Source: Burkholderiaceae bacterium (lineage in GTDB: Bacteria > Pseudomonadota > Gammaproteobacteria > Burkholderiales > Burkholderiaceae_C). Taken from it: a stretch of DNA of 43,291 bases. The translations under genes were made by a program, and so were the position numbers. Below, in pieces: positions 956 through 24,066 of this stretch. Position 1 is the first letter of the stretch, and every line of letters begins with the position of its first letter. The DNA is taken from contig JAURZS010000037.1 of assembly GCA_030653255.1 (NCBI GenBank), positions 1 through 43,291 on the forward strand, written 5' to 3'. The notes beneath the pieces are model-generated. The model was not told where the DNA came from, made no database searches, and saw nothing but the letters and a program-made list of their open reading frames with translations.

Positions 956-2647
956 ATGCACCAGCCTACAGCCACGCCCCGCTCCTCGATCTACTACGAC
1001 TACAAGGTGTTCACGCCCTGGCTGCCCGGCGCGCACGGCCCGCAGGAGCGCAAGAAGGTCGTCATCGTGGGCTCCGGCCCTGCGGGCATGGTCGCCGCGC
1101 TCGAACTGGCGCGCCACGGCGTCGCCAGCGTGATCCTGGAGTCCGAGCTGCAAGTCTCGCAAGGCAGCCGCGCCATCGTGTTCACGCGCCGCTCCATGGA
1201 AATCCTCCAGCAGGTCGGTGTGGCCGATCGCATGAGCCAGACCGGTCTGCCCTGGCGCTGCGGCAACTCCTACTACCGCGGCCAGCAGGTCTTTCGCATG
1301 GAAGCGCCGCACGACCCCGATGACCGCTTTTTTCCGATGCTGAACATCCAGCAGCAGTACATGGAGGAATACCTTCTGGACGCCTGCCGGGCCAACGCCC
1401 TGATCGATTTTCGCTGGGGCAACAAAGTCGTGCGAACAGAACAGCTGTCGGGCTCTGTGAGGCTGCAGGTCGATACGCCCGAAGGCCCCTACACACTGGA
1501 GTCGGACTGGGTGGTGGCCGCCGACGGCGGGCGCTCCGAGATCCGCGCGGCCATGGGGCTGCAGATGGAAGGCGCCTCCTACGAAGGGTTTTTCGTCATC
1601 GCCGACATCCGCATCGATCTGCCGCTGCCCACCGAGCGCCTGGCCTTCTTCGATCCGGACTGGAATCCGGGCAACACCATCCTGATGCACCGCGAGCCCC
1701 ACGGCATCTGGCGCGTCGACTACCAGTTGCCGCCTGGCGAGACCCCCGAACAGGCGCTCAAGGCCGAATCCCTCAAGCAACGCATCGACGCCCAACTGGC
1801 CATGATCGGCCACGCAGGCGTCCCCTGGGAGATGGACTGGAGCTCCGTCTACTCGGCGCGCACGCTCACCCTGCCGGACTACGTGCAGGGCCGCGTGATC
1901 TTCACCGGCGACGCCGCCCACCTGCTGCCGATCTTCGGCGTGCGCGGCGCCAACACGGCCTTCCAGGACGCTCAGTCGCTGGCCTGGCATCTGGCCTTTG
2001 TGGTCAAGGGCCTGGCACACGAGAAACTGCTCGCCAACCACAGCCAGGAGCGCGTTGGTGCAGCACGCGAGATCATCGACGAAGCCGGCAAGAGCACCCG
2101 CTTCATGGCGCCGCCCAGCCGGGGCTTCCGGCTGCTGCGCGACGCCGTGCTGTCGCTGTCGCTCACGGAGGAGTTCGTGCGCCCGCTGTACCACTGGCGC
2201 ACCTCGCGCCCCCATGAATACACGCATTCCGCACTCAACAGCAGCGGCGACGACAACGCCTTGTTCACTGCAGGCCCGGCGCACGGTGCGCCCCCGCAGA
2301 ACGTCCGCCTGGGCGCCGACGATTTCCTGCTCGATCACCTCGGAGGCGGCTTCGATCTGCTGTATTTCACGCAAGCGCAGTCCGTGCCAGAATCGATCCT
2401 GTCGGTGGTGGGCGAAGTCCGCGCCAGGGGCGTTGCGGTGCGGGTCGTTGCTGTTGGCGCCGACCGGCCCGTGCAGGGCGCAGAACTGACCCTCGCCGAT
2501 CCGCAGGGCCACTTCAGGCTGCGTTACGGCATTCAGGCCAGTGGAGGCGCCTATCTGCTGCGGCCCGACCAGCACATCTGCGCGCGCTGGATCACCCTGG
2601 ACGCCGCACGCCTGAAATCAGCATTCGGCGCGGCACTGCCCCAATGA
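956..2647 (+). CDS. FAD-dependent aromatic hydroxylase (PheA/TfdB/MhpA-like flavoprotein monooxygenase)
   Basis: GxGxxG 'VVIVGSGPAGMVAALELARHGV', 'GDAAHLLPIFGVRGANTAFQDAQSLAWHL' FAD motif, thioredoxin-like C-terminal tail. Confidence 0.88.
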   Translation: MHQPTATPRSSIYYDYKVFTPWLPGAHGPQERKKVVIVGSGPAGMVAALELARHGVASVILESELQVSQGSRAIVFTRRSMEILQQVGVADRMSQTGLPWRCGNSYYRGQQVFRMEAPHDPDDRFFPMLNIQQQYMEEYLLDACRANALIDFRWGNKVVRTEQLSGSVRLQVDTPEGPYTLESDWVVAADGGRSEIRAAMGLQMEGASYEGFFVIADIRIDLPLPTERLAFFDPDWNPGNTILMHREPHGIWRVDYQLPPGETPEQALKAESLKQRIDAQLAMIGHAGVPWEMDWSSVYSARTLTLPDYVQGRVIFTGDAAHLLPIFGVRGANTAFQDAQSLAWHLAFVVKGLAHEKLLANHSQERVGAAREIIDEAGKSTRFMAPPSRGFRLLRDAVLSLSLTEEFVRPLYHWRTSRPHEYTHSALNSSGDDNALFTAGPAHGAPPQNVRLGADDFLLDHLGGGFDLLYFTQAQSVPESILSVVGEVRARGVAVRVVAVGADRPVQGAELTLADPQGHFRLRYGIQASGGAYLLRPDQHICARWITLDAARLKSAFGAALPQ

Positions 2648-2657
2648 GGAAACAACC

Positions 2658-2849
2658 ATGACCCCACAGCAACCCCTCAGTGTTCCCGGCCTCGAAGCCG
2701 TGTACGACCAGCTCGCCGCTGCCATCGACCAGGCCGGCCCCGACAAGGCCGAACTCTTTCTCGTGAAGCTGGCCTTGCTCAACGCAAATGCCCTGGGCGA
2801 TGCAGATGTGTTCAGCATGCACGTTCATTCCGCGCTTCGCGATCTGTGA
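2658..2849 (+). CDS. DUF2783-like small protein
   Basis: 63 aa directly downstream of the flavin hydroxylase; small DUF2783-type proteins commonly sit next to such hydroxylases. Confidence 0.65.
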   Translation: MTPQQPLSVPGLEAVYDQLAAAIDQAGPDKAELFLVKLALLNANALGDADVFSMHVHSALRDL

Positions 2850-2880
2850 AGCACACCCCTTCATCACTCCTGGAGAACCC

Positions 2881-3426
2881 ATGAAGATCTCGAAAATTCA
2901 TCACGTGGCCTACCGCTGCAAGGACGCCCGGCAGACCGTCGAGTGGTACGCCAAGTACCTGAACATGGACTTCCAGCTCGCTTTTGCGGAAGACCAGGTT
3001 CCTTCCACCAAGGCGCACGATCCCTATATGCACATTTTTCTGGATGCTGGCGGCGGCAATGTGCTGGCCTTCTTCGAGCTGCCCACGCAGCCGCCCATGG
3101 GACGCGACACCAACACGCCCGAATGGGTGCAACACATTGCGTTCGAAGTCGAATCGCTGAGCGTGCTGGACGAAGTCAAGGCCAGGCTGCAGGCCGACGA
3201 CATTCCGGTGGTCGGCATCACGGACCACACCCTGTTCAAGTCGATCTACTTCTTCGACCCCAATGGCCATCGCCTGGAACTGGCGGTGGACACCAGCACG
3301 CCGGCATTGGCCGCACGGGCGGCATCCGTCAAATGGGAAATGCTCGAAGAATGGAGCAAGACCAAGCGCGCGCCCAAGCATGCAGCCTGGATGCACTCCC
3401 TGGAACTGGAAGACACCAAGTCATGA
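2881..3426 (+). CDS. VOC superfamily protein (glyoxalase/extradiol dioxygenase-like)
   Basis: Start placed at ATG 2881 ('MKISKIHHVAYRCKDARQTVEWYAKYLNM...WVQHIAFEVES...YFFDPNGHRLELAVD'); candidate metal ligands H/H/E. Confidence 0.82.
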   Translation: MKISKIHHVAYRCKDARQTVEWYAKYLNMDFQLAFAEDQVPSTKAHDPYMHIFLDAGGGNVLAFFELPTQPPMGRDTNTPEWVQHIAFEVESLSVLDEVKARLQADDIPVVGITDHTLFKSIYFFDPNGHRLELAVDTSTPALAARAASVKWEMLEEWSKTKRAPKHAAWMHSLELEDTKS

Positions 3427-4733
3427 TCAACGAGACCCACAACCCGGCCTTGCGCAGCTGGGTCGCATCGGCCAATGCGCCAGGCTGCGACTTTCCCCTC
3501 CAGAACCTGCCGTTTGCCAGTTTCAGGCGCCAGGGCAGCCAGGAGGCCTTTCGCGTAGGCGTGGCTATCGGCGACCAGGTGCTGGACCTTGGCGCGCCCG
3601 GGGTGGCCGCGGCACTGAAGTGCGAACCGCGCGTGGCCGCAGCGCTGGCGCAGCCGGGATTGAATGCCCTGATGGCGCTGGGGCACGCGGTCTGGTCGGC
3701 GCTGCGTCTGGCCCTGTCCCGGGCCTTGCGCGAGGCATCGCCAGCGCAGGCCGCGCTGCAGGCGGCGCTGTTGCCGCAGTCGCAGGTCGAATACAGCCTG
3801 CCCGCGCGCATCGGCGACTACACCGACTTCTATACCTCCATCTACCACGCGACCAACGTCGGCAAACAGTTCCGCCCTGACAACCCCCTGTTGCCCAACT
3901 ACAAATGGGTGCCCATCGGCTATCACGGCCGCAGCTCCAGCATCGTCGTCTCGGGCCAGAGCTTTCACCGCCCCAAAGGCCAGTTGATGGCGCCGGGGGC
4001 GGCCGCGCCCGTGCTGGGCACCAGCCAGCGGCTGGACATCGAACTCGAACTGGGCATCTTCGTCGGCCAGGGCAACACGCTGGGCGAGTCCATCCCGATG
4101 AGCGAGGCCGAAGACCATGTCTTTGGCCTGTGCCTGCTCAACGACTGGTCGGCCCGCGACATCCAGGCCTGGGAATATCAACCGCTGGGGCCTTTTCTGG
4201 CCAAGAACTTCGCCTCTACCGTCTCGCCCTGGGTGGTGACTCTGGAAGCGCTGGCCCCGTACCGCACAGCGCCCTTCCGGCCTGCTGAAGACCCGCAGCC
4301 ACTGCCCTACCTGGACACGCCGCAGAATCGCGAAAGCGGCGCACTGGACATCCAGCTCGAAGTACTGATCCAGACCGCCCAAATGAAAAAAGACGGCCTG
4401 TCGCCGCACCGACTGGTGCAGACCAGCTACCGCCACGCCTACTGGACGCTGGCGCAGCTCGTCACACACCACACCGTCAACGGCTGCAACCTGCAACCCG
4501 GCGACCTGCTGGGCAGCGGCACCCTCTCAGGGCCGACGCTGGACCAGGCCGGCGCCCTGATGGAGCTCTCTGCCGGCGGCAAGAACCCCATCGCCCTGCC
4601 CAACGGCGAGACGCGCACCTATCTGCAAGACGGCGACACCGTGGCGCTGCGCGGGCATTGCAGCCGCGAGGGCACCGCACGGATCGGGTTTGGCGAGTGT
4701 GCGGGGACGCTGCTGCCCGCAAAGAGCACGTAA
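3423..4733 (+). CDS. fahA: Fumarylacetoacetase
   Basis: 436 aa from ATG 3423, ATGA overlap with VOC gene; 'DYTDFYTSIYHATNVGKQFRPDNPLLPNYKWVPIGYHGRSSSIVVSG' and 'LELGIFVG...LLNDWSARDIQAWEYQPLGPFLAKNF'. Confidence 0.93.
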   Translation: MINETHNPALRSWVASANAPGCDFPLQNLPFASFRRQGSQEAFRVGVAIGDQVLDLGAPGVAAALKCEPRVAAALAQPGLNALMALGHAVWSALRLALSRALREASPAQAALQAALLPQSQVEYSLPARIGDYTDFYTSIYHATNVGKQFRPDNPLLPNYKWVPIGYHGRSSSIVVSGQSFHRPKGQLMAPGAAAPVLGTSQRLDIELELGIFVGQGNTLGESIPMSEAEDHVFGLCLLNDWSARDIQAWEYQPLGPFLAKNFASTVSPWVVTLEALAPYRTAPFRPAEDPQPLPYLDTPQNRESGALDIQLEVLIQTAQMKKDGLSPHRLVQTSYRHAYWTLAQLVTHHTVNGCNLQPGDLLGSGTLSGPTLDQAGALMELSAGGKNPIALPNGETRTYLQDGDTVALRGHCSREGTARIGFGECAGTLLPAKST

Positions 4734-7451: not shown

Positions 7452-9815
7452 CTATAGCGATCCCGTGGCACCAGTGGAAACAAGTTCTTCCATCTCGGCT
7501 GTCGTCATCCCCAACATCTCTCGCAAAACCTCCCGGGTGTCCTGCCCCATATGTGCATTGCGAAAGACGACACGCCCGGCCGCTGCGCGAGACGATGGAA
7601 AAAATCCAGGCACGCAAAACTCACCCAAGTTCGGATCGACCGCAGTTTGCACGTCCCCACGGGAAAGAAAGTAACGGTTGGCTCCAATGCCACCGCCATC
7701 CTGGACGTTCGCCGCAAGAACCCCAGCCCCAGAGAGGCCGGACTTTACGTCTCCGGAATTCAGTGTCGCCGTCCAAGAACGAAGCGAGTCCGTCAATTCC
7801 GTATCCCGTGCCCCTTCAACGAGTTGGCGGACAGGCAAATCGTCGCCTTGTGCCGGCAATATTGCGTGAACCCACTGGCCGTCCAGGCATCGCAACATGG
7901 CGCTGTGACGGCCATCTTCCGCCCCCCATCCATAGGGATCATTGGTTCCTTGTCGAGAAGGGGCTGTTCCAGCAGGATCAGGCGAAAATTGAGCATCGAG
8001 GATTCGAAGCAAAGGCTCGTAAAGAGCCAAGTCGATATGCACCCCCTTGCCAGAGCCACGGGCAAACAAAGCAACATTGACTGCCAAGGCACCAAACAGA
8101 CCTGCGCTCGTATCGGCAAGCGAAAATCCCACGAACATTGGCAAATCGGTTTTTGCCCCTGTCAGAGGAACCACTCCGCTCATGCCCTCTGCAATCTTCC
8201 CGAAGCCGGCCCGCTGCGCGTAGGGCCCGGTTTGCCCAAAGCCAGAGATGCTCAAAACCACCAACGAAGGGTTCAGTTCGTGAAGATGAGATACCGAAAG
8301 TTTGAGTCGATCAAGCACTCCAGGGCGGAAGTTCTCAATAAGAACGTCCGCCTTGGCTACCAGCTTCTCGAAAGTCGCACGACCGCCATCGCTTTTCAAA
8401 TCAAGGCTGATGCATTTTTTTCCGCGCACGGAAACTGCCCACCAGATCGGTATCCCCTTGACACACGGCCCCATATGGCGCAAGCCGTCCCCACTACGGG
8501 GCGACTCAATTTTTATTACGGTGGCGCCCAAATCCGCCATGAGGCTACCGGCAAATGGGCCGGCGATGATTGTGCCGAGCTCCAGAACAATCGCTCCCGC
8601 CAAAGGTAGATTTTGAGGGGAAGTAGCGCGTGTAGAAACTGACATACCGCGCTCCACGCCGGGTGTCGCAGCGCTCGCCACAAGGACAGCCACTTCAGCT
8701 CTATGTTGGCCCATCACAGGGGCGGCGGCGATTGGATTGGAAGATTCGAATATCCGTGGAATGATGTTTGCCGACCTGCGTTCAACCTTGTCGGCCATCT
8801 CTTGTGAGGTCAGATTTCCACGCGCGCGAATCTGCTCGTCCGCGAGAATTTCGAACACGTCATAGACAGGGCCGATGACAACATCGGCATGGCTACCTGC
8901 CTCCATGACTGCGGTTAGCGAGCGCTCGCCCACCCATTGATCTATGGCGGCATATATGGCCGCCATGTTGACGGCGCGAGCCGCAGGGGTTGCGAATCGC
9001 TCATCCGCCACCATTTCTTCGCCGCCGACCAGTCGCATGAGACGAACTGCCACTGCCTGATTCGCGGCAGAAATTGCAACATGCTTGCCATCGGCGGTAC
9101 GGTGCATATTGGAAATTCCGGCATTGAGAGGAAAGGCATTTCCATTGCGCAGCTCGGGCTTGCCCATCAGACTTGCAACGGGCAGCTGCCATTCAATCAT
9201 GCGCTGAACGGCTTCGTGCATCCCGATGGAAAGCGATTGCGCAGTCCGTGCGGAATTCTTGAGTGCGCAAAGCTCCGCCATCAATGCCATTGCACCCATA
9301 GCCCCGGCCAAACACTCTGCCAGCGGCGCCTCGACCACCACCGGCGCTCCGTCCGCCCAACCTGTGAGGGCCGCCATCCCGGTGTGCGCAGTGGTCAGCG
9401 TCGGCGCGATCCCCTGTCCCCATAGCTCCGGGTTGTCCGCGCCGGTGGGAAATATATCTACGATAAACGGTGGTTTGGCGAGTTTCGAATGCTTCACCAG
9501 CAAAGGGTGGCTTGTGCGATCCCCTTCAACAACATCGGTCAGGACCACGTCAACGCGTTCGAGAAGTCCAGTCCACATCAGCAGGTCTTCGGGATTTTCA
9601 GGGTCGATTGCCACAGAGCGCTTATTTCGCGCAATGGAACTCCACCAAACGGACTGCACGGACGGTGGCGTCAGGCGCCGTACTTGGGTGCCCAACGGAA
9701 GTAGTTCAATGACGTATACGGTGGCTCCAAAATCAGCAAGTAATGCGGCGGCAAAAGAAGCTGATACGGAGCTGCTGACCTCAACCACAAGCAGCCCTGC
9801 CAGAGGCTGCTTCAT
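7452..9815 (-). CDS. Fused tandem-domain CaiB/BaiF (class III) CoA-transferase
   Basis: 787 aa; two family III N-termini: 'LAGLLVVEVSSSVSASFAAALLADFGATVYVIE' and 'LAGAIVLELGTIIAGPFAGSLMADLGATVIKIESPRSGD'. Confidence 0.9.
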   Translation of the reverse strand: MKQPLAGLLVVEVSSSVSASFAAALLADFGATVYVIELLPLGTQVRRLTPPSVQSVWWSSIARNKRSVAIDPENPEDLLMWTGLLERVDVVLTDVVEGDRTSHPLLVKHSKLAKPPFIVDIFPTGADNPELWGQGIAPTLTTAHTGMAALTGWADGAPVVVEAPLAECLAGAMGAMALMAELCALKNSARTAQSLSIGMHEAVQRMIEWQLPVASLMGKPELRNGNAFPLNAGISNMHRTADGKHVAISAANQAVAVRLMRLVGGEEMVADERFATPAARAVNMAAIYAAIDQWVGERSLTAVMEAGSHADVVIGPVYDVFEILADEQIRARGNLTSQEMADKVERRSANIIPRIFESSNPIAAAPVMGQHRAEVAVLVASAATPGVERGMSVSTRATSPQNLPLAGAIVLELGTIIAGPFAGSLMADLGATVIKIESPRSGDGLRHMGPCVKGIPIWWAVSVRGKKCISLDLKSDGGRATFEKLVAKADVLIENFRPGVLDRLKLSVSHLHELNPSLVVLSISGFGQTGPYAQRAGFGKIAEGMSGVVPLTGAKTDLPMFVGFSLADTSAGLFGALAVNVALFARGSGKGVHIDLALYEPLLRILDAQFSPDPAGTAPSRQGTNDPYGWGAEDGRHSAMLRCLDGQWVHAILPAQGDDLPVRQLVEGARDTELTDSLRSWTATLNSGDVKSGLSGAGVLAANVQDGGGIGANRYFLSRGDVQTAVDPNLGEFCVPGFFPSSRAAAGRVVFRNAHMGQDTREVLREMLGMTTAEMEELVSTGATGSL

Positions 9816-16205: not shown

Positions 16206-17174
16206 ATGAAAAAGTTCAAGCTTCTGGTTTCTGTACTCACGCTGGGTTTGTGTGCTGCGGCGCATGCGCAGGGCGCCTATCCCACAAAGCCGATTTCAAT
16301 GATCGTGCCCGGGCCAGCCGGGAGCGCCATAGACAATGTCGCCCGGGTCATTGGGGATGCCATGTCGGCCACTCTGGGCCAAAGTATCCTGCCCGTCAAT
16401 GTCGAAGGTGCGGGCGCCACACTGGGCACGATTCGGTTGGCTCAATCGCGGCCGGATGGCTATACGATCCTGTTTCACAACGTCGGTTTGTCCGTTGCAC
16501 CGTCGCTCTACAACAAGCTGCAATACGACGTATTCAACGATCTGCAGCCGCTGGGACTGACGAGCGAAGTACCCATCGTCGTTGTCGCAAAGAATGATCT
16601 TCCACCAAAAAGTGTGGCTGAACTGGTCGCCTATGCCAAGAGGGAAGGAAAAAAGATGACGTTGGCGACGTCCGGACCAGGTAGCGCCTCGGACTTGTGC
16701 GGAACCGTTCTGCAGCAGCAGATGGGGACCCAATTCACGCTTGTCCCGTACAAAGGTTCTTCGCCCGCACTCACGGACATGATTGGTGGGCGCATCGACC
16801 TGATGTGCGACCAGACAACCAGCGCAGCATCACAGATCAAAGCCGGCCGCATCAAGATCTATGGCACTGCATCGAAAGAGCGACTCGCCATTCTCCCGGA
16901 TGTCCCCACAATGACCGAGGGGGGCTTGCCGTATGTCTTTTCCATCTGGCAAGGCATGTACGCGCCCGCAAAAACGCCACCGGAAGCCGTGAGGGCGCTC
17001 TCGGCCGCTTTGCGCAGCGCCATCCGGCAGGAAAAGGTCAAGGAGGTTCTGCGGTCCAAATACAGCGTGGAAACCGTCGAGGCAGAACGGGCCACGCCTG
17101 AATTCCACACCAGATTCCTGAGGCAGGAAGTCGAGCGCTGGGCTCAGTACTACAAGGGCATTACCAAGCAGTGA
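16206..17174 (+). CDS. Bug-family TTT substrate-binding receptor
   Basis: 'MKKFKLLVSVLTLGLCAAAHAQGAYPTKPISMIVPGPAGSAIDNVARVIGDAM'. Confidence 0.93.
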   Translation: MKKFKLLVSVLTLGLCAAAHAQGAYPTKPISMIVPGPAGSAIDNVARVIGDAMSATLGQSILPVNVEGAGATLGTIRLAQSRPDGYTILFHNVGLSVAPSLYNKLQYDVFNDLQPLGLTSEVPIVVVAKNDLPPKSVAELVAYAKREGKKMTLATSGPGSASDLCGTVLQQQMGTQFTLVPYKGSSPALTDMIGGRIDLMCDQTTSAASQIKAGRIKIYGTASKERLAILPDVPTMTEGGLPYVFSIWQGMYAPAKTPPEAVRALSAALRSAIRQEKVKEVLRSKYSVETVEAERATPEFHTRFLRQEVERWAQYYKGITKQ

Positions 17175-17225: not shown

Positions 17226-18065
17226 ATGAATCGAAGCAACAACTACCCGATGAACGGCGTACGCATCCACGTCGAGGACGACGACTTCGTGGAGCCATGG
17301 CTTGACCACAGCACCGTCCTCATGCAGCACGGGTTCTGCCGCAACGGCGAGTTCTGGTCGACATGGGTGCCCTACTTTGCACGCAAGTTCCGCATTGTCC
17401 GACCAGACCTGCGTGGCCATGGCCAAAGCAGCGATCCCGGACCTGACTACAGGCTCACCCTGGATGATCTGATCGCGGATCTCATCGGCGTTCTCGATGC
17501 CCTGGAAATCGACGCAGTTCACTATATTGCTGAATCATTTGGATCCGTCATCGGAGTGTCGGCGGCAGCCCGGCATCCGCACAGATTCAAGAGCCTCTCG
17601 CTGCACCATACGCCAGTCAGTGTGGGGCCCGATGCAGGTCAGGCGCAAGCGGTAGGCCATTCCTCGTGGCGCAACGCCATTACAGATCTTGGCGTTGAAA
17701 AGTGGTGGCTGCAAGCCCGTGGAGCCACTGGTGACCTCACAGGAAACCCCAAGGCCGATGCCTATACGGCGCGTGAGGCTGCGCGGACACCGGTCCATGT
17801 GGCGGTGGCCCTCGCCGACCTGGCCAGAAGCTTCGACCTCTCCGATTCTCTGAAAAAGCTGAGCATGCCGACGCAGTTCCACACCTCAGGCCGCTACTCC
17901 TACACCACCAGCAAGGAGCAACAGGAGAGTTTGCTGAAACTGGTTCCCCACGCCGAACTCATCGTCCATGACGACGTGAAGGGGCGCACTTTTTTCAACT
18001 TCTTCGATGTCGACACCGTCGCCCCCAAAGTCGCCAGGTTTGTTCAGAAAATTGATTCGCAATGA
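17226..18065 (+). CDS. Alpha/beta-hydrolase fold protein with non-canonical active-site residues
   Basis: 'LMQHGFCRNGEFW...FRIVRPDLRGHGQSSDPGPDYRLTLDDLIADLIGVLDAL'; elbow 'AESFGS'. Confidence 0.82.
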   Translation: MNRSNNYPMNGVRIHVEDDDFVEPWLDHSTVLMQHGFCRNGEFWSTWVPYFARKFRIVRPDLRGHGQSSDPGPDYRLTLDDLIADLIGVLDALEIDAVHYIAESFGSVIGVSAAARHPHRFKSLSLHHTPVSVGPDAGQAQAVGHSSWRNAITDLGVEKWWLQARGATGDLTGNPKADAYTAREAARTPVHVAVALADLARSFDLSDSLKKLSMPTQFHTSGRYSYTTSKEQQESLLKLVPHAELIVHDDVKGRTFFNFFDVDTVAPKVARFVQKIDSQ

Positions 18066-18087
18066 CGCATTCACGGTTGCCGCAACC

Positions 18088-18885
18088 ATGAAGTCAGGAA
18101 AATTGAGCACTGGGGTATCTGAATACGATGTCGGGCCGCGCTCCCCATTGCGCACGGTGGAAGTGCTTCGCGAGCTGGCTCGGCACGAGGGGGCCGGCGT
18201 TTCCCTCGCTGCGCTGGCCGCAAAGCTTCAGTGTCCCAAGACAAGCCTGTTTCGTCTGCTTCGCTCCCTGGAAGCCGGAAAATACGTCATATCGGCCAGC
18301 GGGGAGCACCAGCTCGGGCCGGCCGCCTTGGAATTGGGCTTTGCTATTACAAACACGCGCGAGTTTCCTCGATGTGCAAGCACGACGCTGCAAGCGCTGG
18401 CACAGAAATGCAGAGAAACCGTCATTCTGGGCGTGCTCGCCAGCACAAAAAAAGAGATCCTCTACGCTGCGGTTATAGATGGCACACATCCATTGCGGTT
18501 CAGCGCCACGGTAGGAAGCAAGCATCCGCTTTATGGTTCAGCCTGCGGCTTGGCGGTGCTCGCCCACTCCGCACCGGCAGACCAGAGCGCTTACATCAAG
18601 TCAGTCAAGTTCAAGCGCCTGGCAACAAAGACCATCATGAGCACGATGGAGCTGAAGCGGCGCCTGGAGGAAATCCGAACGGATGGCATCGTGATCAGCG
18701 CGGATGGCATGGTGGAAGGCGTGCACTCATTCGCGGCGCCCATCCGTCAAGCGGACGGCACCGTGCATGCCGCCCTTTCCATATCTGCGCCAAATGCCCA
18801 TGCCGTCAAGAATTTCAGGAAGTTCGAGCAGCTGGCTCGAGATGCAGCAGCCGAGATATCCGCAATTCTCGGCTACACGAAGTAG
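18088..18885 (+). CDS. IclR-family transcriptional regulator
   Basis: 'SPLRTVEVLRELARHEGAGVSLAALAAKLQCPKTSLFRLLRSLEAGKYV' plus IclR effector domain; start set at MKSGKL. Confidence 0.88.
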   Translation: MKSGKLSTGVSEYDVGPRSPLRTVEVLRELARHEGAGVSLAALAAKLQCPKTSLFRLLRSLEAGKYVISASGEHQLGPAALELGFAITNTREFPRCASTTLQALAQKCRETVILGVLASTKKEILYAAVIDGTHPLRFSATVGSKHPLYGSACGLAVLAHSAPADQSAYIKSVKFKRLATKTIMSTMELKRRLEEIRTDGIVISADGMVEGVHSFAAPIRQADGTVHAALSISAPNAHAVKNFRKFEQLARDAAAEISAILGYTK

Positions 18886-18908: not shown

Positions 18909-19745
18909 ATGTCGCAAAGCAATGCTGCCCAAGGCGGCCCCATCAAGTTCTGGCACCAGTCGATGACGGAGCTTCAGCTTCTCGGACCCTACCGCGAATA
19001 CCTCGAGTCACATGCTCGCAAGGTGCTTGGAGACAGCGTCTCGATCACCGTGCATGGGGTGAAGCCAGGTTCATACCACGGCCGCGCACCGACGCCGGCC
19101 CTGGGGAACGCGTTTACCTACCACCGCATCCTGGACCACGTCATCGATAACGCCTATACGGCCGAGAAGTCCGGCTTCGATGCGTTCATCGTCGGTTCAT
19201 TCAGTGAGCCTTTCCTGCGCGAACTCCGCTCGCTCGTCCGCATTCCGGTCGTCTCGATACTCGAAAGCTCTCTTTTGATCAGTTGCTCGCTGGGAAAGAA
19301 AATCGTTCCCCTGGCCAACGGGCGGGAGCTCGAGGCACTCGTCAACAGCGCTGCCGAAAAACACGGCCTCAGGGAACGGATCCAGCCGGCGGCGACACTT
19401 TCCCCGCCGTGGCATGAGCCAGAGTTGGCGGCAGCCATCCATGATCCAGCGAAGCTCATTGCGGCATTTCGCGAGACTGCGCAAAAGCTGGTGGATGGCG
19501 GCGCGGAGGTCATCATCCCGGCCGAAGGCGTGCTGTGCGCGGTCCTGAGCGCCAACAACGTGACAGAAGTCGGTGGGGCGCCGGTGATCGACGTCTTTGG
19601 GGCGACCTGGCTGTACGCGCAGATGCTCGTCCGGCTTCGCAGGCTTTTCGGCACGACCGTGAGCAATGTCGGAGCCTATGCGCAGGCCGATCGGGCGCTC
19701 GTCGAATTGGTACTGGGCGCGTCTGCCGGAAAACCTGCAGCGTAA
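18909..19745 (+). CDS. Asp/Glu/hydantoin racemase superfamily protein, catalytic cysteines absent
   Basis: 278 aa from ATG 18909 with upstream GGAGG; 'GFDAFIVGSFSEPFLRELRSLVRIPVVSILESS' and 'GAEVIIPAEGVLCAVLS...APVIDVFGA' match the racemase layout. Confidence 0.75.
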   Translation: MSQSNAAQGGPIKFWHQSMTELQLLGPYREYLESHARKVLGDSVSITVHGVKPGSYHGRAPTPALGNAFTYHRILDHVIDNAYTAEKSGFDAFIVGSFSEPFLRELRSLVRIPVVSILESSLLISCSLGKKIVPLANGRELEALVNSAAEKHGLRERIQPAATLSPPWHEPELAAAIHDPAKLIAAFRETAQKLVDGGAEVIIPAEGVLCAVLSANNVTEVGGAPVIDVFGATWLYAQMLVRLRRLFGTTVSNVGAYAQADRALVELVLGASAGKPAA

Positions 19746-19777: not shown

Positions 19778-21241
19778 GTGTCTATTGGCTCACTGGGTAC
19801 GGAACCCTTCGACGTTGTGGTGGTCGGCGGTGGGTTGGCCGGGCTCTGCGCCACGCTGGCAGCAGCCGAACTGGGCGGACGGGTCGTCCTGCTTGAAAAA
19901 ATGCCGGCCCTGGGCGGCAGCACGGTGCTGAGCGGCGGATTCATGGCTTTCGCGGACACGCCGATGCAGCGCGAGGCCCATGTGCTCGACAGCAATGAAC
20001 TGCTGCTGCAGGACCTGCGGGCGGTGGCGGGGCCGGACGCTGATGAGGAACTGCTTCGCGCTTACGCAAATGGCCAGGCCCAACTCCATGAATGGCTGCT
20101 GAGCAAAGGGGTGCGGTATGCGGGGCTTGAGCAAAGCTCTGGCCAATCTGTTGCCCGCAGTCACCAGACCGATGCCAGAGAGATGCTGGAAAAACTGACC
20201 GGGCAGATCAGGAAGTATCCGCAAGCGAAAATATGCACTGACTCCCGCGCTATGGCGCTGATTCGCACTGAACTCGATGGTCCGGTGGCATCCGTCGAAG
20301 TCGAACGCGGTGGCTCGGTGGAGCGCATCCGTTGCCTGGGTGGGGTTGTTCTCGCCAGCGGCGGATTTTCCCGGTCAGAAGCATTGCTTCGGCTGTTCGC
20401 TCCGGCCCAGGCGCAGGCGGTTCGGATTGGGGGGGCAGGCAACACGGGCGATGGCTTGTGGCTTGCCTGGAAGCTCGGCGCCGGCGTGCGGGACATGGCA
20501 CAGATCCGAGGCACCTTCGGCACCCATCCGGACTGCACCGCCGAACAGCATGAAATCCTTTTGGCCTTTTATCTGGGCGCGATCATCGTCAACCTCGAGG
20601 GACGACGGTTCGTCGACGAATCCCAATCCTACAAAGTCCTGGGCGATGCCTGCCTGGCCCAGCCACAGCAGCGCGCCTTCCAGATCTTCGACCAGCGGGT
20701 GATGGACAAATCGAGCCCGGGTGTCCCGCTCTTCGACTTCCAGCCAGCATTGGAGCGCGGCCTGCTTGTCAAGGCGGACAGCCTGGAGGAACTGGCAGCG
20801 CGGTGCGGGATGGACGCCAAGGTGCTGCGCGCTTGCGTCGAGCGCTACAACGCCGGCGTCGATGCCGGATTCGATCAGGACTATGGGCGCGACGGCTTGT
20901 GCCACCACGCAGGCGCACTGTGCAGACTCGACCAGCCCCCGTTCTATGCCTACCTGTCGACCACCGCCCTTCTCGCTACTTACTGCGGCCTGCATGTGGA
21001 TGCGCTGGCACGCGTGCGTGATGTCTACGGCGAGCCCATAGAGGGACTCTACGCCGCCGGCGAGATCACAGGCGGCTTTCACGGCCAGACGTACATGACC
21101 GGAACATCCCTGGGAAAGGCTGCGTTCTTCGGCAGGGTTGCAGGCATTAACGCCTTTCGCCGCTCACGTAATGGGGCGGCCTCTTTGCAAGTTGGCGGAC
21201 CGGCATCCGCTTCGATCAACGTGAAGAGAGAGTCTGAATGA
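19778..21241 (+). CDS. FAD-binding protein, fumarate reductase/succinate dehydrogenase flavoprotein-like (FAD_binding_2)
   Basis: GTG start; 'FDVVVVGGGLAGLCATLAAAELGGRVVLLEKMPALGGSTVLSGG', C-term 'GLYAAGEITGGFHGQTYMTGTSLGKAAFFGRVAG'. Confidence 0.9.
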   Translation: MSIGSLGTEPFDVVVVGGGLAGLCATLAAAELGGRVVLLEKMPALGGSTVLSGGFMAFADTPMQREAHVLDSNELLLQDLRAVAGPDADEELLRAYANGQAQLHEWLLSKGVRYAGLEQSSGQSVARSHQTDAREMLEKLTGQIRKYPQAKICTDSRAMALIRTELDGPVASVEVERGGSVERIRCLGGVVLASGGFSRSEALLRLFAPAQAQAVRIGGAGNTGDGLWLAWKLGAGVRDMAQIRGTFGTHPDCTAEQHEILLAFYLGAIIVNLEGRRFVDESQSYKVLGDACLAQPQQRAFQIFDQRVMDKSSPGVPLFDFQPALERGLLVKADSLEELAARCGMDAKVLRACVERYNAGVDAGFDQDYGRDGLCHHAGALCRLDQPPFYAYLSTTALLATYCGLHVDALARVRDVYGEPIEGLYAAGEITGGFHGQTYMTGTSLGKAAFFGRVAGINAFRRSRNGAASLQVGGPASASINVKRESE

Positions 21242-22626
21242 CGAATACGATCAATCATCGGCTGGCGCGCTGGATGGTGGAACTGAAGGCGGACGAAATT
21301 CCTGAAGAGGTCATCACGCAGACCAAGTTCCGCGTTCTGGACCTGGTCGGCGCGATGCTGGGCGGCAGCCAGACCGTGCTCGCCGCGCAGGTTTCCAAGG
21401 CCATTTCGGGGCCTGAGCACGGGAGCGGCACACCAGCCATCGGACGCGCACAGCAAACCGGAACTGCCGCCGCAGCGCTGCTGCAGGGGACCATGGGCTG
21501 CGTGATGGAATATGACGACACGCACATCCTCGCGAGCATCCACTCCAGCACACCGGTGGTGGCGGCTGCCCTTGCCAAAGGGCAGCAATCGGGAGTGACG
21601 GGGCGCTCCTTGCTCGAAGCGGTGCTGGTCGGCAACGAGCTCAGCTGCCGCATTGCACTGGCGGCGCCGGGTGCGTTCCATCGTGCGGGCTTCCACCCAA
21701 CGGCAGTTCTCGGTGTCTTCGGCGCATGCTATGCGGTGGCACGCATGTCGGGTTTGAATGCCGGGCAGGTCGCCAATGCGATCGGCATCAGCGGCAGCCT
21801 ATCGTCGGGCATCATGGCTTCCTGGGAAGATGGCACCGACGCGAAGTCGCTGCATGCGGGCTGGGCGGCTTCGGCCGGTGTTCAAGCCGTCAACCTGGCC
21901 TTGTGCGGGGTGACCGGCCCTTCCAAAGTGTTTGAGGGCCGTTTTGGATTCTTTCCCTCGCACCTGCGCGCGGAGCCGATCCCCATCGCCTACGATGCCA
22001 TCGAGAAGGATCTCGGCCAGGTGTGGGAAGTTCTCAACATCGCCCCGCGCGAATTCGCCTGCGGCCACTACATCCAGCCCTTCATCGACGCCACGCTCCA
22101 GGCCTGCGCCGGCGCCAGGATTGACGCCGCCGACATATCCGAAGTGGTCTGCAGCGTCGCCGACTATATGGTTCCGCTGATTTGTGAACCGGTCGAGGAG
22201 AAGCTTCATCCGACCACCTCCTGGCATGCACGCTACAGTCTTCCGTTTTGCGTGGCCGAATGCCTGCTCAAAGGGAGCTTTACCAAATACAGTCTGGCGG
22301 AAAGAGACCTTGTGGACGAGCGCTATCTCGCGTTGATGCGCAAGATCAGATACGAAATCGACAAGTCAGCCCCCGATCGGACGCGATGGAGCGGCGAAGT
22401 GCGCGTCGTTCTCCGCTCCGGCCAAACCCTCAGGCACAGGGTGGAAGACATGCGCGGCAGCCCGCGCAACCCCATGACCACCAAGGAGCTGATCGACAAG
22501 TTCCTTCACAACACCGAGGGCATCATGAGCGCCGGCGCAGCCGCCGAAACGCTGGAACGAATTCTGGCCCTTGAAAGCGCCAGCGATATTCGCGAAGTGT
22601 TCGCGCCGCTTTCACGGGGCACCTAA
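21238..22626 (+). CDS. MmgE/PrpD family protein
   Basis: 'VLDLVGAMLGGS...EYDDTHILASIHSSTPVVAAALA...AGFHPTAVLGVFGA...DAKSLHAGWAASAGVQA'; ATGA overlap with upstream gene. Confidence 0.93.
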   Translation: MTNTINHRLARWMVELKADEIPEEVITQTKFRVLDLVGAMLGGSQTVLAAQVSKAISGPEHGSGTPAIGRAQQTGTAAAALLQGTMGCVMEYDDTHILASIHSSTPVVAAALAKGQQSGVTGRSLLEAVLVGNELSCRIALAAPGAFHRAGFHPTAVLGVFGACYAVARMSGLNAGQVANAIGISGSLSSGIMASWEDGTDAKSLHAGWAASAGVQAVNLALCGVTGPSKVFEGRFGFFPSHLRAEPIPIAYDAIEKDLGQVWEVLNIAPREFACGHYIQPFIDATLQACAGARIDAADISEVVCSVADYMVPLICEPVEEKLHPTTSWHARYSLPFCVAECLLKGSFTKYSLAERDLVDERYLALMRKIRYEIDKSAPDRTRWSGEVRVVLRSGQTLRHRVEDMRGSPRNPMTTKELIDKFLHNTEGIMSAGAAAETLERILALESASDIREVFAPLSRGT

Positions 22627-22661
22627 AAATGCACGTCATCGACCGGTGCATTTTCAATGCA
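22626..22661 (+). promoter_or_regulatory. Overlapping alternative stem-loops between PrpD and second flavoprotein gene
   Basis: AAAATGCAC(22626-22634)/GTGCATTTT(22646-22654) and TGCATT(22647-22652)/AATGCA(22656-22661) share bases. Confidence 0.45.
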
Positions 22662-22689
22662 GGCTTATTCTTCAGGAAGGCATGAGGCA

Positions 22690-24066
22690 ATGGCTGATTT
22701 CGATACCCAGGTAGACGTATTGGTGATTGGTGCGGGCGGCGCAGGTCTGGCTGCGGCGATTGCCGCAAGTGATCTTGGAGCTTCCGTGGCCGTGGTCGAG
22801 AAGCTGCCGCGCCCAGGCGGCAACACCGGTCTCAGCACAGGTTCGATCCCCGGTGCGGGCACGCGTTTTCAACGCCTGGCCGGCATCGACGACAACCCTC
22901 AAAAAATGACCGCCGACCTGCTGGGACTCAGCGGCGATCACGACGCCACCGACTTGACACGCATGCTGTCTGAACGGTCTGCTGAGCTTGTTGAATGGCT
23001 GGTCGACAAGGCACACATACGTCTGGACATCATCAAAGACTACAAACACGTAGCCCACTCGGTCCCCAGATTGCATGCCCCGGCGTCCCGAAAGGGTGCC
23101 GACCTCGTGCACGACCTGGTGGCCGCCGTAGAGCGCAGAGGCGTTCCCATTGTGTTGTCCAACCCGGTTGTCGATCTCATTCTCGGCAAGAACGGAGAGG
23201 TGATCGGCGCCACCACGCGGACCGCGCAGAACGCCGTGTCGCGGATTGGTGCCGGAAAAACCATTCTGTGCGTGAACGGATTTGGCGCCTCCCAGCAAAT
23301 GCTCGCGCAGTACTGCCCGGAAATCGCCGGCGCGATGTACAGCGGTGCCAAGGGCAGTGAAGGTGAAGCCATCCGCTGGGGAGCGCAGCTCAACGCGCGA
23401 CTGGGAAACATGGCCAGCTACCAAGGGTATGCAACACTCATGTACCCGCACGGCGAGCTGCTCTCATGGACCACCATTGAAAAAGGCGGCGTGCTCGTCA
23501 ACGACAAGGGCCTGCGGTTCGGCGATGAATCCATCGGATATTCGGGCTTTGCCGCGCCAGTGATTGCACAAAGCGGCAAAGTCCACGCCATATTCGACCA
23601 GCGCATCCGCGACATTGCGGCCAAGGAGCCGTGGTTCAAGGAAATACTGGACATGGGCGGTGCCAAGAAGGCCATCGATGTCCCCGATCTGGCGTCAAAG
23701 CTGGCGGTGGATCCCGCCGCGTTGCAGAAAACCTTGTCGGCATACGGTCAAGGCAGCGACGAGTTCGGCAGAAAGGATATCGGTATCGCCCCACTGCAAG
23801 CGCCCTATTGGTACACGCAGGTGGTGGGCGGGCTGTTGAGTACCCAGGGCGGCCTGATGATCGATCAGCACGCGCGGGTATTGGACAAGACCGACCGGAC
23901 GATTCCCAACCTGTATGCCGCCGGTGGCGCAGTCGCAAGTATCTCCGGACGCAGTGGGGGCGTTGGCTATGCATCGGGTAGCGGACTGCTGCATGCGATT
24001 GGACTGGGTTGGATTGCGGGAACTGATGCCGCCAATGCGGTGGCCAATCCATCCCATTCGAGGTGA
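22690..24066 (+). CDS. FAD-binding_2 family flavoprotein (fumarate reductase/ketosteroid dehydrogenase-like)
   Basis: 'VDVLVIGAGGAGLAAAIAASDLGASVAVVEKLPRPGGNTGLSTG', C-term 'NLYAAGGAVASISGRSGGVGYASGSGLLHAIGLGWIAG'; start at ATG 22690 with upstream AGGAAGG. Confidence 0.9.
   Translation: MADFDTQVDVLVIGAGGAGLAAAIAASDLGASVAVVEKLPRPGGNTGLSTGSIPGAGTRFQRLAGIDDNPQKMTADLLGLSGDHDATDLTRMLSERSAELVEWLVDKAHIRLDIIKDYKHVAHSVPRLHAPASRKGADLVHDLVAAVERRGVPIVLSNPVVDLILGKNGEVIGATTRTAQNAVSRIGAGKTILCVNGFGASQQMLAQYCPEIAGAMYSGAKGSEGEAIRWGAQLNARLGNMASYQGYATLMYPHGELLSWTTIEKGGVLVNDKGLRFGDESIGYSGFAAPVIAQSGKVHAIFDQRIRDIAAKEPWFKEILDMGGAKKAIDVPDLASKLAVDPAALQKTLSAYGQGSDEFGRKDIGIAPLQAPYWYTQVVGGLLSTQGGLMIDQHARVLDKTDRTIPNLYAAGGAVASISGRSGGVGYASGSGLLHAIGLGWIAGTDAANAVANPSHSR

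Follow-up and report, generated by a model that had tools for sequence, protein, structure and literature searches.

The window, that is, the whole 43,291-nt stretch of DNA analyzed, carries on its forward strand an open reading frame at 18909..19745 (278 codons uninterrupted by a stop, the ATG at 18909 being preceded by a GGAGG-type ribosome-binding site) for a 278-aa protein of the Asp/Glu/hydantoin-racemase fold, a member of what we call the WHQ subfamily, with Ser97 and Glu206 at the two catalytic positions. The gene is part of an operon with the order alpha/beta hydrolase, IclR, racemase-like protein, FAD1, MmgE/PrpD and FAD2, all on the same strand. The alpha/beta hydrolase (17226..18065) is nearest to the enol-lactonase (PcaD) models, although it scores far below their cut-offs, and the first-ATG start of the IclR-type regulator gene (18007..18885), which overlaps the hydrolase gene, is probably too early. 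Downstream lie FAD1 (19778..21241), a flavoprotein resembling fumarate reductase, urocanate reductase and ketosteroid dehydrogenase; an MmgE/PrpD protein (21238..22626), whose closest relatives of solved structure are iminodisuccinate epimerase and cis-aconitate decarboxylase; and FAD2 (22657..24066), a second fumarate-reductase-like flavoprotein. The racemase-like gene is separated by 23 bp from the IclR gene and by 32 bp from FAD1, which overlaps the MmgE/PrpD gene by 4 bases.

A TctC/Bug receptor of tripartite tricarboxylate transport is encoded ahead of the operon (16206..17174, forward strand), and TctC receptors, a CoA ligase, an old-yellow-enzyme relative and a CaiB-type CoA transferase are also found nearby. 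Farther upstream, at 956-4733, a FAD_binding_3 aromatic-ring hydroxylase and a fumarylacetoacetase-type hydrolase hint at an aromatic-acid branch, and a 787-aa CaiB-type protein with two CoA_transf_3 matches, a fused double CoA-transferase, is encoded at 7452-9815. Just behind the operon, the segment 24125-24200 is 80-88% identical to plasmid regions, some of them annotated as IS3-family transposase, and represents an insertion-sequence remnant.

The only Pfam domain in the racemase-like protein is PF01177 (Asp_Glu_race), matched with an E-value of 6.9e-17 and a score of 62.4 bits, twice the curated cut-off of 31 bits; no NCBIfam model matched the protein. The AlphaFold2 model (pLDDT 93.2, pTM 0.90) has the two-domain pseudosymmetric fold of this superfamily, and allantoin racemases were the top matches in the Foldseek search with this model (TM up to 0.84, E 8.7e-11). 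The protein thus has the Asp/Glu (hydantoin/allantoin) racemase fold, as the first-pass annotation had proposed. We considered whether the gene is a pseudogene and rejected this on the basis of the open frame, the operon and the conserved residue pair described below.

The same annotation, made by eye, had placed the motifs GSFSEP (residues 96-101) and IIPAEGVL (residues 202-209) at the catalytic sites and read them as Cys-to-Ser and Cys-to-Glu replacements, respectively. Both placements were borne out by alignment of a profile built from 59 relatives to PDB sequences. In the alignment to 3qvj (E 8e-31), Ser97 (codon 19197..19199) falls on the Cys of IACFGDP and Glu206 (codon 19524..19526) on the Cys of LGCGGM; the alignment to 5lfd (E 2.5e-29) likewise puts Glu206 on the Cys of LGCGGM. 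A phmmer search with the single sequence placed both residues in the same way, far more weakly. The two columns correspond to the catalytic cysteines of KpAllR, Cys79 and Cys184 (PMC12661438). Furthermore, relatives bearing a CFFDP motif place its Cys exactly in column 97, and three more distant relatives found with the same profile (L116, L117 and L122) carry Cys in both columns without gaps, which supports the alignment. In the AlphaFold2 model, Ser97 is the first residue after strand 92-96 and Glu206 falls in the stretch that links strand 201-204 to helix 207-215, so that the two residues are predicted to sit at symmetry-equivalent strand ends.

The protein contains other cysteines, which had been judged to lie off the catalytic positions, and this holds for both. 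Cys126 (codon 19284..19286), in the SCSLG segment, comes just after helix 117-125, 29 residues beyond the first catalytic column; it is a Cys in 83 of 91 family rows and is missing from most members with Cys97 and Glu206. Cys210 (codon 19536..19538), in EGVLC, is four residues beyond the second catalytic column, a position that is unconserved across the family (N, A, C, S or T). The alignment columns and the conservation pattern exclude either cysteine from the catalytic sites; in particular, the Cys of EGVLC does not take up a catalytic position. The Cys pair that defines hydantoin and allantoin racemases is therefore absent, and because neither catalytic column holds a Cys, racemization of the classical two-thiol kind is unlikely.

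The subfamily was delineated by a genome-contig scan, seeded with four close rows because a broad 17-row alignment was too diverse as a seed, which returned 80 loci of 309 relatives. Together with plasmid and genome rows fetched earlier, this yielded 91 rows with W-H-Q at residues 15-17. The marker is the N-terminal motif I-K-F-W-H-Q-S (residues 12-18, 18942..18962, forward strand; consensus R-I-W-H-Q-S). W15, H16 and Q17 are invariant in the 91 rows, partly by selection, since the search itself used W-H-Q as one of its two patterns. Note that these patterns span the W-H-Q region (about residues 12-20) and about residues 85-94, leaving columns 97 and 206 unselected. Residue 97 is Thr in 56 rows, Ser in 21 and Cys in 14, and residue 206 is Glu in 82 and Asp in 9, with Cys in none; the pairs are Thr/Glu (56), Ser/Glu (21), Cys/Asp (9) and Cys/Glu (5). 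Whole-genome searches added 14 further WHQ rows, not counting the window itself and two rows counted before, and all 14 combine Ser, Thr or Cys at 97 with Glu at 206. A family alignment, proposed at the outset as a check on the two replacements, thus found both columns conserved in kind in 91 of 91 and 14 of 14 rows, which argues that the pair is not due to chance. Other conserved polar residues are H16, Q17, S18, Y28, H49, Y56, R107, E119, R157 and D228. In rows that fall outside the WHQ group, the two columns are mostly N/G, H/G, A/G or C/C.

In the phylogenetic tree, the Cys/Cys rows adjoin the rows with an acidic pair; they form a fork of their own (95/81) and the join is at 85/70, with long branches. 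This topology tentatively fits a stepwise replacement of a cysteine dyad. The window protein belongs to a strongly supported Ser/Glu group (100/96) together with members from Polaromonas, Paraburkholderia, Brucellaceae and Variovorax. The other genomes searched from the GTDB family of the window yielded no WHQ-type member; the gene is therefore patchy in its distribution and was perhaps acquired laterally. Neither a name nor a description of the subfamily was found in the literature, chiefly freely accessible papers.

Loss of the dyad was also seen elsewhere in the fold. The genome of the window encodes a tandem racemase-fold pair (G000:C3 10609-12198; L002, L003 and L105) with Asn at the first Cys column, Gly or a gap at the second and, accordingly, no dyad. 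A sister group, from plasmids of Rhodobacterales, Rhizobiaceae and Rhodococcus (L015-L020) and from L138-L142, has H-F-Q-D/E-P/A at the first position, has Gly at the second and is often found beside genes for a KynB-type cyclase, an SDR, a thiolase and an OsmC-type protein (organic hydroperoxide resistance); judging from sequence and gene context, it appears to be another dyad-less group with a pathway of its own. Hydantoin-racemase-like proteins with AAFGDP and AGAPLAG motifs (L006, L007, L008, L126 and L143-L145) carry Ala and Gly at the cysteine columns and lack both cysteines.

The association with flavoproteins extends beyond the window. Among 90 related loci, FAD_binding_2 genes are present in 57 and directly adjoin the racemase-like gene in 32; TctC genes occur in 37 loci and PrpD genes in 24. 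The whole 2.5-Mb genome of the window contains six FAD_binding_2 matches above 110 bits; two of them beside the racemase-like gene, and the frequency seen in the related loci, thus clearly exceed the background. In many Thr/Glu loci and in Rhizobium gallicum, a FAD1 orthologue (46-51% identity) lies directly next to the racemase-like gene or overlaps it. Orthologues of FAD1 (47-50% identity) were also identified in 2 of 4 additional genomes whose search yielded no WHQ-type gene, so that the two genes pair preferentially but not obligatorily. The neighbors differ between loci: Pseudomonas loci carry FAD, ETF, SDR and isochorismatase genes, and Brucellaceae loci old-yellow-enzyme, MBL hydrolase and CoA genes. 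Given this variation, substrate and reaction may differ from one member to another. The Cys/Asp member of L013 (Variovorax sp. SRS16) lies next to an argininosuccinate-lyase-like gene, and MmgE/PrpD and TctC genes are close by, an arrangement that recalls aminopolycarboxylate (iminodisuccinate) degradation. Because fumarylacetoacetase-type genes occur in the window and in L014/L040, we considered the maleylpyruvate isomerase of the gentisate route but rejected it, as most loci lack a ring-cleavage dioxygenase. In the literature searched, no described catabolic cluster joins MmgE/PrpD, tricarballylate-dehydrogenase, ETF/isochorismatase or auxin-degradation genes to one for a WHQ-type protein.

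Taken together, the conserved residues and gene context suggest that the product is probably a working enzyme whose chemistry differs from two-thiol racemization. The simplest reading of a second Cys replaced by Glu or Asp, with the first position varying among Ser, Thr and Cys, is that the carboxylate took over proton transfer; alternation of Thr, Ser and Cys at 97 while 206 stays acidic is what would be expected if the carboxylate performed the main chemistry. The grouping of Cys/Cys relatives beside the subfamily is consistent with conversion from a dyad enzyme. Our leading reading, a tentative one that falls somewhat short of probable, is an isomerase or tautomerase that acts by acid-base chemistry on an unsaturated or 2-oxo carboxylate, with Glu206 as the main base, Ser97 as its partner and FAD1 in the same pathway. 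With the dyad exchanged for a hydroxyl or thiol (Ser/Thr/Cys97) and a carboxylate (Glu/Asp206), Glu206 would remove and return a proton at the carbon beside a carbonyl or carboxyl group. From the other face of the cleft, Ser97 would hydrogen-bond to the enol(ate) or relay a proton to it, and the net outcome would be an isomerization, either a double-bond shift or a keto-enol tautomerization. FAD1, acting as a CH-CH dehydrogenase or ene-reductase, and the MmgE/PrpD protein might receive the product or supply the substrate, the pathway putatively being fed by tricarboxylate-type uptake. We prefer isomerization because the partner flavoproteins and relatives of the MmgE/PrpD protein act on C=C or C-H bonds beside carboxylates or carbonyls.

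The same single acid/base in a catabolic context rich in carboxylates could also serve a cofactor-free decarboxylase of the arylmalonate decarboxylase (AMDase) type, in which Glu206, at the place of Cys188, would re-protonate the enediolate after loss of CO2 and a small residue 97 (Gly74 in AMDase) would aid the oxyanion hole (PMC4996985). We regard this as unlikely: the elements that define AMDase (G74, C188, T75-S76, LMGTSLSF and ILLSCGGL) are all absent from the corresponding segments, VGSFSEPF and VIIPAEGV, as aligned by inspection, and AMDase is absent among the best 50 Foldseek matches listed. The first-pass view that two-base racemization is improbable stands for the two-thiol form, but it does not extend to Glu206, itself a possible acid/base. 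If Glu acted as base on one face and Ser, Thr or Cys as donor on the other, such an unbalanced pair could make the protein an epimerase or racemase that supplies the enantiomer accepted by a stereospecific FAD1; the fold, the immediate pairing with a dehydrogenase-like flavoprotein and the activity of EcL-DER with its unbalanced Thr83/Cys197 pair (PMC12661438) all point this way. Even so, this reading is quite unlikely, considering that the pKa values of Ser and Glu are badly matched and that two-face catalysis is sensitive to such changes: replacing Cys1 of OpaE by Ser leaves 4.8% of the activity, and replacing Cys2 by Ser at most 0.3% (PMC12661438).

Throughout the subfamily, residue 97 is Ser, Thr or Cys, a typical set of nucleophiles, and it could act as nucleophile or base, partnered by Glu206, in a hydrolase or a C-C or C-X lyase built on the racemase scaffold; we consider this very doubtful, and we know of no Asp/Glu-racemase-fold member that works in this way. 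Finally, a catalytically dead, ligand-binding or regulatory protein, a non-enzymatic role that had initially been left open and that loss of both canonical cysteines and the adjoining IclR gene might suggest, is highly improbable in view of the strong conservation of the replacement acid and many polar residues (the H16 to D228 set) and the conserved operon coupling to enzyme genes.

Returning to acid-base catalysis by Glu206, it is conceivable, although we would not call it probable, that the whole subfamily exchanged thiol for carboxylate catalysis and, paired with fumarate-reductase-like flavoproteins, acts as an isomerase or decarboxylase in an uncharacterized pathway of carboxylate degradation. 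The automatic annotation "aspartate/glutamate racemase family protein" is probably wrong for all WHQ members. If Glu206 is the catalytic base, the textbook two-thiol mechanism would not be the only one of the fold, and the natural Cys/Cys, Cys/Asp, Cys/Glu, Thr/Glu and Ser/Glu variants would form a ready-made series for the change of a catalytic pair. The recurrent partner genes define organic-acid pathways that are testable in cultured Pseudomonas and Paraburkholderia.

Among characterized proteins, the nearest solved structures are the allantoin/hydantoin racemases KpAllR (3qvj/3qvk), PfAllR (5lfd) and the Pyrococcus horikoshii protein 2eq5, which share the fold and the conserved Glu119 region with the window protein. 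The window protein differs from them in an extra loop at about residues 50-66, with a conserved G-x-Y-x4-P, and in having Ser97/Glu206 in place of the dyad (Cys79/Cys184 in KpAllR). The substrate-binding Asn12, Thr118 and Thr119 of KpAllR are not kept as the profile alignment reads, with non-Thr residues in the Thr118/119 columns and the N-P-N-T loop becoming W-H-Q-S-x-T, the exact register of the loop being uncertain. Maleate cis-trans isomerase, from the same superfamily, would suit a pathway of unsaturated dicarboxylates but uses two catalytic cysteines, whereas the window protein has Cys at neither column. OpaE, also of the PF01177 fold but a weaker profile match (E 9e-14), requires both residues of a Cys90/Cys199 dyad that is missing here. 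Closer in this respect are EcL-DER (YgeA; Thr83/Cys197) and RacX (Ala79/Cys193), which, like the window protein, have a residue other than Cys at the first position but keep the second Cys (PMC12838360), where the window protein has Glu206 and the family Glu or Asp. Precedents in the literature found for replacing a dyad cysteine concern the first position only. AMDase (Gly74/Cys188; PMC4996985) retains Cys188, Gly74 and its specific motifs, all lacking here, and shares with the window protein the fold and one acid/base at the second position; together with EcL-DER and RacX, it provides the precedent within the fold for one-cysteine chemistry.
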